Source: Candidatus Gastranaerophilales bacterium (GTDB lineage Bacteria; Cyanobacteriota; Vampirovibrionia; Gastranaerophilales; Gastranaerophilaceae). From it: DNA of 64,000 nt. Of this stretch, positions 371 to 46,673 are shown piece after piece. The translations under genes were made by a program, and so were the position numbers. Within the stretch, counting starts at the first letter, position 1. Every line of letters starts with the position of its first letter. The DNA lies in the NCBI GenBank assembly GCA_944325515.1, contig CALVAO010000010.1:1-64000 (forward strand), in the 5' to 3' direction. The notes beneath the pieces are model-generated. The model made no database searches. It had not been told where the DNA came from and saw nothing but the letters and a program-made list of their open reading frames with translations.

Positions 371-1270
371 TCACTTATGTTTAGGGTCATGTTTAGGGTT
401 TAAAAAAGGAAAGGTTTCGTGCACTAAGTCGTCAATCTTATTTCGAGTTTCATGTCCATCACCATACACAGCTTCTCTTGTTTCATGATTTTCATTAATG
501 ATAGTATCACGTGTTTTATAGTGTTCATCATGTATAGCATTTCTAGTTTCTAGATTTCCTATATTTACGTCTTTACGAAGAGATGAATAATCTTTATGAG
601 CTTCCTCGCGGGTTTTAACATTTTCTGCTACTACAGTTCTTCTTGTTTTGGCAGCTTGAGTGTTTGTATTTGAATTAATTTCTTTGACAGCCTCGTCTAA
701 ACGTGCGCGTACTGCTTTTATATCACCACTCAATTCTTTACAGGTAGCTTCAATAAATTCTCTTGTTAAACCCATTTGCATATACACACCATAAAAACCG
801 TTAGTCATAGTCTCGATGGTTGATTCATACATTTCTTCAGCACTTTTGGTTCTTGCGGCTTCAATATCTTGTTTAGCATTCTCAACCCATTCTACTACGG
901 CATCTTTCCAAGATTCAAAAGCGTTATCTTTGCCTCCAAAATTTTTAGAATCAAAATCTTCCGGTAAAGGGAATGCCTCATAATCAATAATATAAGGAGT
1001 CGTTGGATAATCACGATTAAAACTTCTTGCAGTATCAATAATTTCATTTAATGATCTTCTTGCAAAATCATTAGCATGTTGCCTGTAACTTTTTTTGAAA
1101 CCACTAAAATCCAATTTTGGAGGTTTATTATTTGTTTCAACAACCTCCTTTGAAACTTCTGCCGGCGTAAAAGTTTCCCTTAATTTTTCATTAGTGCTTT
1201 CTTTTGGAGCAATACTTTGTCTGTTTTGAACAGGCTGCGTAAGCTCTTGATTTGTTTTTTCAATTTTCAT
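371..1270 (-). CDS. Hypothetical protein with seven tandem 11-residue repeats
   Basis: I do not recognise the family. The start at 1270 is chosen because an AAAGGAG ribosome site sits 6-7 bases upstream; a start 11 codons further upstream has no such site. The 299-residue product is hydrophilic and has no signal peptide. Its N-terminal ~45 residues are rich in Gln, Thr and Glu. A helical, Trp-containing middle follows, with an acidic region around residues 85-120. Residues about 208-284 are seven consecutive 11-residue units that start with (K/E)TR in nearly every case and often end in His, Tyr or Leu. That period is typical of hendecad coiled coils. The tail ends in a His/Lys/Pro-rich stretch. 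A role as a structural or filament-forming coiled coil is inference only. It stands alone between a hairpin (319-356) and the repeat element (1306-1729), whose left palindrome lies in its promoter region. Confidence 0.75.
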   Translation of the reverse strand: MKIEKTNQELTQPVQNRQSIAPKESTNEKLRETFTPAEVSKEVVETNNKPPKLDFSGFKKSYRQHANDFARRSLNEIIDTARSFNRDYPTTPYIIDYEAFPLPEDFDSKNFGGKDNAFESWKDAVVEWVENAKQDIEAARTKSAEEMYESTIETMTNGFYGVYMQMGLTREFIEATCKELSGDIKAVRARLDEAVKEINSNTNTQAAKTRRTVVAENVKTREEAHKDYSSLRKDVNIGNLETRNAIHDEHYKTRDTIINENHETREAVYGDGHETRNKIDDLVHETFPFLNPKHDPKHK

Positions 1271-1305: not shown

Positions 1306-1729
1306 AATGTAACTTAATACCTATTGTGTTACATTAGGGGCAAAAACAAAGAATGATGCACATTTAAACCATATGAAACCGTAGAATTTATTCACAAACA
1401 CCTACCCTCGCCGGAAAATAGAGGAAAATCGCACATTATAACAACTAAAAACAAAGAAAAACAAGGCGCGCGCCGCGAACGTGATGCGTAAGCATCGATA
1501 GTGAGCGAAAAAGAACCGGTTTACCGGTCAAGCCTTGGAGGTTAGCCTCAATGCCCGTAAGGGCATAGAAAACAGCCGCAGGTTTTCTCTTTCTTTTCGT
1601 ACTTTTCTTTCTCTTTTGATGCGAAAGAAAAGAGAAAGAAAAGTACATAAAGAAAAAGTAAGAGTAATAAGGCTTACAGCCTAAAAAATAACCCCCTAAT
1701 GTAACACAATAGGTATTGTGTTACATTAG
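1306..1729. repeat. Palindrome-bounded structured repeat, copy 1
   Basis: A 424-bp element is bounded by two palindromes. The left one (1306-1335) is a degenerate copy. The right one (1696-1729) has perfect 16-bp arms (CTAATGTAACACAATA and its complement) around GG. Between them is a GC-richer core at about 1465-1650 with stacked hairpins: GATGC-GTAA-GCATC (1483-1496), ACCGGT-TT-ACCGGT (1515-1528), ATGCCC-GTAA-GGGCAT (1551-1566), and a 19-bp perfect stem with polypyrimidine arm at 1599-1617 and polypurine arm at 1628-1646. A second copy with the same architecture in inverse orientation lies at 46105-46539. The flanking arms (about 130-155 bp and 50-80 bp) are not conserved between copies. A 67-codon reverse open frame crosses the core, but it is explained by the repeat and I do not call it a gene. 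Confidence 0.85.
1696..1729. repeat. Perfect-armed palindrome of repeat copy 1
   Basis: Two 16-bp arms are exact complements around a 2-bp centre. The same arms recur at 46105-46138 and, with one outer mismatch, at 46506-46539; a degenerate version is at 1306-1335. The symmetry and size suit a dimeric protein binding site or a recombination end. There is no T tract, so a terminator is unlikely. Confidence 0.8.
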
Positions 1730-41702: not shown

Positions 41703-41744
41703 TTTTCTTGATAAATTACTAATAAAAATGAAAGGATGAAAAAG

Positions 41745-42287
41745 ATGAACATTGTAGACCCCATTAGGGAAAAAGAGTACATTAATGCAGTAAAAAGAGT
41801 TTTGAATGAAAGCGGAACAAGGAATCTTTTATTATTCTTGCTGGGAATTAATACCGGTTTGAGGGTTTCAGATTTACTATATTTAAAAGTTAAAGACGTA
41901 AAAGATAAAGACTCTGTACAAATAAGAGAACGAAAAACCAGAAAAACAAAAAAATTTCCAATACCTAAAGAAATCAGAATATTTATCAGTGAATACGTTG
42001 AACGCAAGCCGTTAAGCCGATATCTTTTTAAAAGCAGAAAATCAAATAAACCAATAACACGCGTACAGGCTTATAGAATAATAAAAGAAGCCTGCAGAGT
42101 TCTCGGCTTAGACCACACAGGAACACATTCTCTAAGAAAAACATTCGGATACCATTTCTATAAACAGACTAAAGATATTGCCCTTTTGCAAAAAATACTA
42201 AATCACTCATCACAGGACATAACCCTGCGTTATATCGGTGTAACACAAGAGATTATCGATAATAATTTAAAAATGTTTGCCTTATAA
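41745..42287 (+). CDS. Small tyrosine recombinase (catalytic domain only)
   Basis: A 180-residue protein. The ATG at 41745 is preferred because AAAGGA lies 9 bases upstream; an ATG three codons earlier abuts that site. All tyrosine recombinase residues are present: Arg40 (NTGLRVSDLL), a Lys in the KTRKTKK hairpin (~67-70), His128 and Arg131 (THSLRKTFGYH), His154 (ILNHSS) and nucleophile Tyr163 (LRYIGV). The N-terminal core-binding domain of phage integrases is missing, so it resembles FimB/FimE-type invertases that switch gene expression, or short integrases of small elements. No obvious inverted switch flanks it. A tRNA-like remnant lies just upstream. It may also be a degraded mobile element. 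Confidence 0.88.
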   Translation: MNIVDPIREKEYINAVKRVLNESGTRNLLLFLLGINTGLRVSDLLYLKVKDVKDKDSVQIRERKTRKTKKFPIPKEIRIFISEYVERKPLSRYLFKSRKSNKPITRVQAYRIIKEACRVLGLDHTGTHSLRKTFGYHFYKQTKDIALLQKILNHSSQDITLRYIGVTQEIIDNNLKMFAL

Positions 42288-45302: not shown

Positions 45303-46019
45303 TTATTGATAAATTACTTTTAAATTATTTTCAAAAATTGAAGCGGCACAGCCTCTACCATCACCGACGTTGTCTTCTGTACAGGCTATAGAACCAGCAT
45401 TATCATCATCATAAGTAGGAATAATACCCGTTGAACGGAAATTTTGAGCACTACTCCCCCAGGGAACAACTTGACCACTTCTATCAATATCAAAATAAAA
45501 AATATCTTTACCCATAATATTTGGACCTCTTTTTATTCCATTAATGTCAATATATAAATCTGTAAATCGACCTTTATATGAACCAACAGCTCCTGTATCA
45601 CTATTCATTAAATCTTTCAATGTAAGTAACGATATATCATCTGAAAATTTAAATTCGATATACTTTGACCAATCTATATTACTAGGCTGCTTATTCCAAA
45701 AAGTTTGTGTAGGTGTAAATATTACACGGTTACTTTTATAGCTATCACTGCCAATAAAAGAACCACCGCTAATATATTTTGCTAAAAGTTCAAAATATTC
45801 ATCACTTGTTTCAGCGATTTTTGCAAGGTCTGAAGCTTCTTCATCATGTAATAACTGTTCATGAGCATTTTCTAATGTAGCAACCACTTTAGATAAAGTC
45901 GGTCCTATTTTAGCAGTCCCTGCATTTTGCACAAGAGCAGGAGCAGTTAATGCTGCAACTACACCGATTATACCTAAAGTAATCAACACTTCCGCAAGAG
46001 TAAATCCGATTTTTTTCAT
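45303..46019 (-). CDS. Type IV pilin/type II pseudopilin-like protein
   Basis: A 238-residue protein with prepilin leader MKKIG|FTLAEVLITLGIIGVVAALTAPALVQN: cleavage after Gly5, mature Phe1 and Glu5. The globular domain (~35-238) includes a Trp/Phe-rich middle and ends in two cysteines (IACTEDNVGDGRGCAAS) and NNLKVIY. This ending closely matches the VTCTG...DNNWKVIYKY ending of the pseudopilin at 16323-17084, so the two are paralogues with a divergent centre. It is monocistronic. The upstream 85 bases lead into the palindrome at 46105, the end of repeat copy 2. Confidence 0.88.
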   Translation of the reverse strand: MKKIGFTLAEVLITLGIIGVVAALTAPALVQNAGTAKIGPTLSKVVATLENAHEQLLHDEEASDLAKIAETSDEYFELLAKYISGGSFIGSDSYKSNRVIFTPTQTFWNKQPSNIDWSKYIEFKFSDDISLLTLKDLMNSDTGAVGSYKGRFTDLYIDINGIKRGPNIMGKDIFYFDIDRSGQVVPWGSSAQNFRSTGIIPTYDDDNAGSIACTEDNVGDGRGCAASIFENNLKVIYQ

Positions 46020-46104
46020 ATTTTAAGCTCTCCTTTTTTATTTTGTTTTATCAAATAGTCAATATTAAGATGCTATAAGCCTTTACTATTGGCTTTTATT
46101 TGCC

Positions 46105-46539
46105 TAATGTAACACAATACATATTGTGTTACATTAGAAAATAAATTTTATGGTTAAAATTAGCTTAATATCTATGTTTTATACTTATTGTCCCTTTCTT
46201 TCTCTTTTTTGGCATTAAAAGAGAAAGAAAGGGACGGAAAGAAAGAGAAAAGAAACGGCTGTTTTCTATGCCCTTACGGGCATTGAGGTTAATTTGATTT
46301 AACCCTCCAGGGCTTGACCGGCAAGCCGGTTCTCTTTCGCTCACTATCGATGCTTACGCATCACGTTCGCGGCGTGCGCATTGTTAGATATAGTATTCAA
46401 GAATTTTATTTCTTTAGAATATATGTAAATAGCAAGATTACAGGTTTTGAAAAACAAATTTTTCGATTTGATATTGCAAAAGTATTGAAAATAGTGTATT
46501 ATAGAGTTATGTAACACAATATGTATTGTGTTACATTAG
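46105..46539. repeat. Palindrome-bounded structured repeat, copy 2 (inverted)
   Basis: A 435-bp element between two 34-bp palindromes (46105-46138 and 46506-46539), with arms as in copy 1. The hairpin core (about 46190-46385) is in the opposite orientation to copy 1: the polypyrimidine/polypurine stem (46190-46208 with 46217-46235) comes first, then ATGCCC/GGGCAT, the ACCGGC-TT-GCCGGT hairpin, and the GATGC/GCATC stem. Stem differences from copy 1 are compensatory: ACCGGT/ACCGGT versus GCCGGT/ACCGGC; the long stem starts GTCCC/GGGAC here against GTACT/AGTAC. The flanks are different from copy 1. A 66-codon forward frame across the core is treated as accidental. Confidence 0.85.
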
Positions 46540-46673
46540 AAAATAAATTTACAATTTGCTATTTTCATCCAGTTTGAAATAATCTATCATTTGATAAATT
46601 GAAGATAACCTGTTATAAAAATTTTTGTGCTTATAGCAAACATTATTTCATTACCAAAGAACGAGCACTTTGC
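46540..46673. other. Intergenic AT-rich stretch
   Basis: These 134 bases lie between repeat copy 2 and the glmS stop. I see no gene, and no good terminator for glmS. Confidence 0.4.

Follow-up and report, generated by a model that had tools for sequence, protein, structure and literature searches.

The window analyzed here comprises positions 1 to 64,000 of contig CALVAO010000010.1 (GenBank assembly GCA_944325515.1) from a Candidatus Gastranaerophilales bacterium, a gut organism related to the cyanobacteria. A preliminary description of this DNA had noted four palindromes of 30 to 34 bp that bracket two segments, with a common GC-rich core in opposite orientation. All four palindromes are present at the positions listed below, and the core was found to be ~200 bp long and 84% identical between the two segments. 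The consensus of the four palindromes is CTAATGTAACACAATA-NN-TATTGTGTTACATTAG. Half-site matches in the window number 7, a count attained in no shuffle; 1.4 would be expected by chance. The features are listed with strand where one applies; switch 1 and switch 2 denote the two bracketed segments with their sites, in anticipation of the reading proposed below.

371-1270, minus strand: candidate target gene of switch 1, whose start codon, with an AAGGAG ribosome site, lies 33 bp outward of the left site
1304-1337: predicted recombination site, left, switch 1; the outer half is a TTAATA variant and the centre is CC
1338-1695: putative invertible segment 1, with a canonical promoter found at neither inner end
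1460-1660, plus strand: GC-rich multi-hairpin core, copy 1, an independent dispersed structured repeat
1696-1729: predicted recombination site, right, switch 1; the centre is GG, the left-site dinucleotide inverted
41736-42287, plus strand: catalytic-domain-only tyrosine recombinase, 183 amino acids (PF00589), proposed invertase of all switches
45303-46019, minus strand: pilin/pseudopilin-like gene (N_methyl, PF07963) on which switch 2 is proposed to act
46104-46137: predicted recombination site, left, switch 2; the centre is CA
46138-46505: putative invertible segment 2, between the switch 2 sites
46189-46385, minus strand: GC-rich multi-hairpin core, copy 2, in the orientation opposite to copy 1
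46474-46502, plus strand: predicted sigma70-like promoter TTGCAA-17-TATTAT, directed away from the pilin gene and separated by 7 bp from the right site of switch 2
46506-46539: predicted recombination site, right, switch 2; the centre is TG, the left-site dinucleotide inverted

The genome that contains the window (G000; 2.1 Mb, 34 contigs) holds 35 palindromes at 3 or fewer mismatches, and a reversed control pattern gave 0. With 2 further, more diverged palindromes, the total comes to 37 sites of 34 bp, which form 17 inverted pairs, each bounding a segment, and 3 single or contig-cut sites. The spacers of the 17 pairs range from ~290 to ~1300 bp and vary in content. In most pairs the sites lie ~400 bp apart with the core inside; three pairs (C5:39025, C16:25127, and C3:35040) are ~291 bp apart and lack the core, and others, with spacings of ~557, 1150, and 1283 bp, enclose different contents. 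No exact copy of the site was found in IMG/VR. The 1283-bp switch on contig C19 of G000 encloses GC-rich dispersed repeats (PHPGKE-type readings) and an open reading frame of 113 amino acids (L047:2682-3023), which is putatively DUF559-like. Four of the 37 sites lie within 600 bp of a contig end versus about 0.7 expected; repeats alone could suffice as the cause, and this excess is not counted as evidence.

The palindromes and the core had been described as one conserved unit. When the recurrence of palindrome-core-palindrome units was checked, each part was found without the other, both in G000 and across the genus, a result that the preliminary description had itself named as grounds to reject a combined element. 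In G000, the ~291-bp pairs and others are coreless, and copies of the core without palindromes lie at C1:201054, C7:105020, and C3:257. Some genomes of the genus that lack palindromes have 20 to 29 core matches (21 to 29 in G035, G053, and G054, with 0 palindromes), and G061, G026, and G038 carry 8 to 14 palindromes and 0 core matches. By its distribution, the core is a separate dispersed repeat that would be dispensable for switch function. Additional core matches lie at C19:13252/15706/17661 of G000. Three short hairpins of the core stay paired inside and outside switches, with 8 pairs changed on both sides, so that the earlier suggestion of a structured RNA is partly right for the core alone, a dispersed repeat whose hairpins are kept paired by compensatory changes. 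GNRA-type loops would fall on the core strand on which the GATGC hairpin precedes the polypyrimidine stem. Rfam contains no family for the core, and its subthreshold matches are mostly eukaryotic miRNA models on the polypurine/polypyrimidine stem. Since the core is located behind the promoter, it would not be transcribed from the switch promoter; insulator, terminator, and RNA are all possible roles.

The explanations first suggested, namely a non-autonomous mobile element, a mobilised structured RNA, or a chromosome-organisation site, lack support as the principal account, since core and palindromes are uncoupled both inside one genome and from one genome to another. Palindromes at both ends do bracket a recurring unit, as the preliminary description held, but this unit is not a single mobile element. 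A MITE- or REP/BIME-like non-autonomous element, with a transposase acting on the terminal palindromes and the core as cargo, would account for palindromes at both ends and for segment copies that are 93 to 98% identical at unrelated flanks, with the identity ending at the palindromes. Spacers of ~290 to ~1300 bp with unrelated cargo speak against such an element, and we regard it as improbable.

Two paralogous loci of G000, C7:12957 and C8:91961, contain the segment in both orientations. The flanks of the two loci align collinearly through the palindromes, over 434 bp on the left (96.8%) and 254 bp on the right (100%), whereas the 438-bp middles match in reverse at 96.6%, with breakpoints within the palindromes. 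An inverted middle between collinear flanks indicates that the segment was inverted one or more times after the loci duplicated. This in-place inversion is a further point against a mobile element. It is also left unexplained if the palindromes are operators of an ordinary DNA-binding repressor or activator, with pairs that permit looping; symmetric sites near promoters at many loci would suit such a regulator.

Strand exchange by a site-specific recombinase needs matching centres in partner sites. The two sites of each pair were compared, each read from outside to inside. The central dinucleotide was common to both partners, in inverted form, in 31 of 32 pairs from G000 and relatives (17 of 17 in G000); 20,000 trials with shuffled partners gave 14.5 matches on average and 24 at most. 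The dinucleotide varies between loci (CA, CC, GG, TG, CG, and TA). Partners often have different outer arms (AC, TT, TC, and AT), and their inner arms agree. Transposon ends do not require centres that match within loci and differ between them, and locus-specific matched centres are likewise unexplained by operators. At L005 (C1:4174-4602) and in the window at 46104-46560, 14 to 15 bp just inside the left site are repeated just outside the right site (TTAGGGGCTTAGTT; TTAGAAAATAAATTT), and a locus-specific stretch of ~10 bp separates the site from the conserved cargo. These direct repeats were found at two loci only; together with the ~10-bp stretch, they recall the coupling sequences of recombinase-moved cassettes.

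The segments sit beside the beginnings of genes and have a predicted promoter with a set direction, an arrangement that again does not favor a mobile element. Of the 17 complete segments, 11 carry a predicted sigma70-like promoter (TTGNNA-17/18-TATNAT) that ends 7 to 8 bp inward of one site and is directed outward. A further segment, truncated where contig C12 begins, has an end of the promoter-bearing type. The start of a pilin-like gene, of the type MKKxGFTLAEVLITLGIIGVVAALTAP or FSLMEMMVVLL, lies ~150 bp or less outside a site at about 11 loci. Since the promoter of switch 2 is directed away from the pilin-like gene at 45303-46019, this gene is predicted to be OFF in the assembly. At C3:35040, C16:25127, and C19:14892, the switch lies between two pilin-like genes that diverge from it and are nearly identical at their 5' ends, and an A/B choice is therefore predicted. 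At loci orthologous to C3:35040 in G032 and G033, the promoter-like end appears to face the opposite way; as a comparison of different cargo classes, this is no more than suggestive. In relatives, no inverton was found at the orthologous glmS position, where the alignment covered glmS only.

No canonical promoter was found in segment 1 of the window (1306-1729) or in five other segments. The inner ends of segments without the promoter (window 1338-1370, L080, L087, L273, L276, and L277) represent a second end type, in which a conserved GGGG(T/C)AAA-rich motif adjoins the site instead. The gene at 371-1270 is without a Pfam or NCBIfam match, and its layout relative to the site is that of the pilin loci. 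By its membership in the family, segment 1 would be expected to switch this gene.

The preliminary description had stated that no transposase lies near the element. This was incomplete, since the window encodes a tyrosine recombinase 3.8 kb from the nearest switch, which is copy 2. PF00589 spans residues 19 to 170 of its 183 amino acids. In an alignment with the XerA-like recombinase of PDB 4a8e, the catalytic positions are occupied by R43, a lysine within residues 70 to 73 (assigned by position only), H131, R134, H157, and Y166. Size and residues thus agree with a FimB/FimE-type invertase, whose catalytic domain of ~180 to 200 amino acids carries R, K, H, R, H/W, and Y. It scores under the NCBIfam invertase cutoffs (49.7 bits versus 222 for PRK09871; 38.5 versus 221 for PRK09870). 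The protein is FimB/FimE-sized and would work like FimB/FimE but is not classed as FimB/FimE proper. A close orthologue (75 to 92% identity) is present in 12 other genomes of the genus, always beside the same upstream gene, and this constant neighbor indicates that the window recombinase is probably vertically inherited.

Among 65 genomes of the genus, an orthologue of at least 75% identity occurs in 13. All 13 carriers have at least 7 palindromes, compared with 2 of the 52 others (Fisher P = 6.4e-12). One of the two exceptions, G031, has an 86%-identical recombinase fragment at a contig end; the other, G038, has 8 sites and no close orthologue found in a genome that is 80% complete. For more distant relatives of the enzyme, at 51 to 58% identity, variant forms of the site occur as matching inverted pairs around or beside the recombinase gene (G017, G030, G009, G029, G047, and G059), with centres that vary by species and match within each pair. 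In three Firmicutes metagenome-assembled genomes (titled Anaerosporobacter, Clostridium, and Defluviitaleaceae), the site recurs as an exact copy 140 to 370 bp from a homologue. Distant relatives with sites of their own provide independent support for the link between enzyme and site. An operator would explain neither the co-occurrence of the palindromes with a tyrosine recombinase nor the sites that flank recombinase genes in relatives, and we judge that alternative to be very improbable. On these comparative grounds, and in a genome known from its assembly only, the 183-amino-acid recombinase is probably the switch enzyme.

A near-perfect palindrome with a 2-bp asymmetric centre, as in Hin/Gin sites, would also suit inversion by a serine recombinase, four of which are encoded in G000. 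However, none is encoded in G064 (61 sites), G049 (29 sites), or G042 and G052 (13 sites each), all of which are 98 to 99% complete, and these four site-rich genomes rule out a serine recombinase as the required enzyme. In relatives, the nonpalindromic centre extends over more bases and yet is the same in both partners, as for tyrosine recombinases. A serine recombinase as the driver of the switches is thus extremely improbable.

Taken together, the segments are very probably invertons flipped in trans by the 183-amino-acid tyrosine recombinase at 17 or more loci, varying pilin-like surface proteins. This reading is based on site pairing, one past inversion, matched centres, promoter placement, target context, and enzyme-site co-occurrence; from these we infer the identity of the enzyme, present-day flipping, and the resulting transcription. 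The recombinase (41736-42287) would bind the palindromic sites at both ends of a segment and exchange strands at the site centre, so that the intervening DNA flips. In the main class, which has an outward sigma70-like promoter just inside one site, a flip would turn the promoter toward the flanking gene (ON) or away from it (OFF); between divergent pilin genes, it would serve one or the other. With one enzyme acting in trans on at least 17 loci, the result would be random, reversible variation of pilin-like surface proteins.

It is conceivable, although rather unlikely, that the recombinase also swaps or copies promoter cassettes between centre-matched loci, flipping, spreading, and homogenising switches across the chromosome. 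Cassette exchange would account for near-identical segments that end at the sites and sit at unrelated flanks, as well as for inner halves that are identical within a pair whose outer halves differ.

The proposed inverton network has parallels in known switches. The E. coli fimS switch is one locus with short repeats and with the recombinases FimB and FimE beside it. As in fimS, a short catalytic-domain tyrosine recombinase and a surface-fibre target are paired with an invertible segment of ~300 bp, inverted repeats, and an outward promoter, here predicted. Unlike fimS, one orphan enzyme would probably serve at least 17 loci through 34-bp near-palindromic sites, and the targets are type IV-pilin-like rather than chaperone-usher fimbriae. 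In Clostridioides difficile, the tyrosine recombinase RecV acts in trans on several invertible sequences and is needed for only some of seven (PMC5903667). Action in trans by a tyrosine recombinase is proposed here as well, but through a bigger and more homogeneous set of sites, in another phylum. The Mpi protein of Bacteroides fragilis is a master invertase for at least 13 invertible regions genome-wide (PMC5903667). The window enzyme is similarly proposed to serve many regions across the genome, whereas Mpi is a serine recombinase whose targets include polysaccharide loci.

Invertons catalogued with PhaseFinder and PhaseFinderDC are stretches of DNA between inverted repeats of 10 to 40 nucleotides, often with promoters and often close to cell-surface genes; the text of that study does not mention Cyanobacteria or Melainabacteria (PMC11892184). 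Flipping of catalogued invertons was measured by reads, whereas the switches described here are known from assembly sequence. For Gastranaerophilales, Melainabacteria, and Vampirovibrionia, our search of the open-access literature, with subscription papers outside its range, turned up no report of phase variation or invertons. The proposed network is a large and apparently single-enzyme one in a lineage for which none was found described. It points to genome-wide phase variation in uncultured gut Gastranaerophilales, and since most switches precede pilin-like genes, cells probably vary their surface display at random. It also offers a clean, phylogenetically supported pairing of a very small tyrosine recombinase with its putative recognition site, including centre variants. 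Because enzyme, sites, promoter, and pilin-like targets are all named, the model is testable on existing metagenome reads, culture-free.

The window recombinase is one of six catalytic-domain tyrosine recombinases of ~180 amino acids encoded in G000, and the five others could contribute to flipping. Other small tyrosine recombinases (of the C16, C27, and C9 type) did not track site counts: in G042 and G046, none is present beyond the window type and those most closely related to it. A second subfamily of ~180 amino acids, 37 to 39% identical to the C16 enzyme, is encoded at L151:1450-1995 and L152:1456-2019 (C8 and C26 of G000), and no TGTAAC-type site was found near these genes. In relatives, a recombinase gene lies between two inverted sites (L197, L198, L205, L211, L196, and L225), and genes enclosed in this way may flip themselves. 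The enclosed recombinase of G016 (L225) is a pseudogene.
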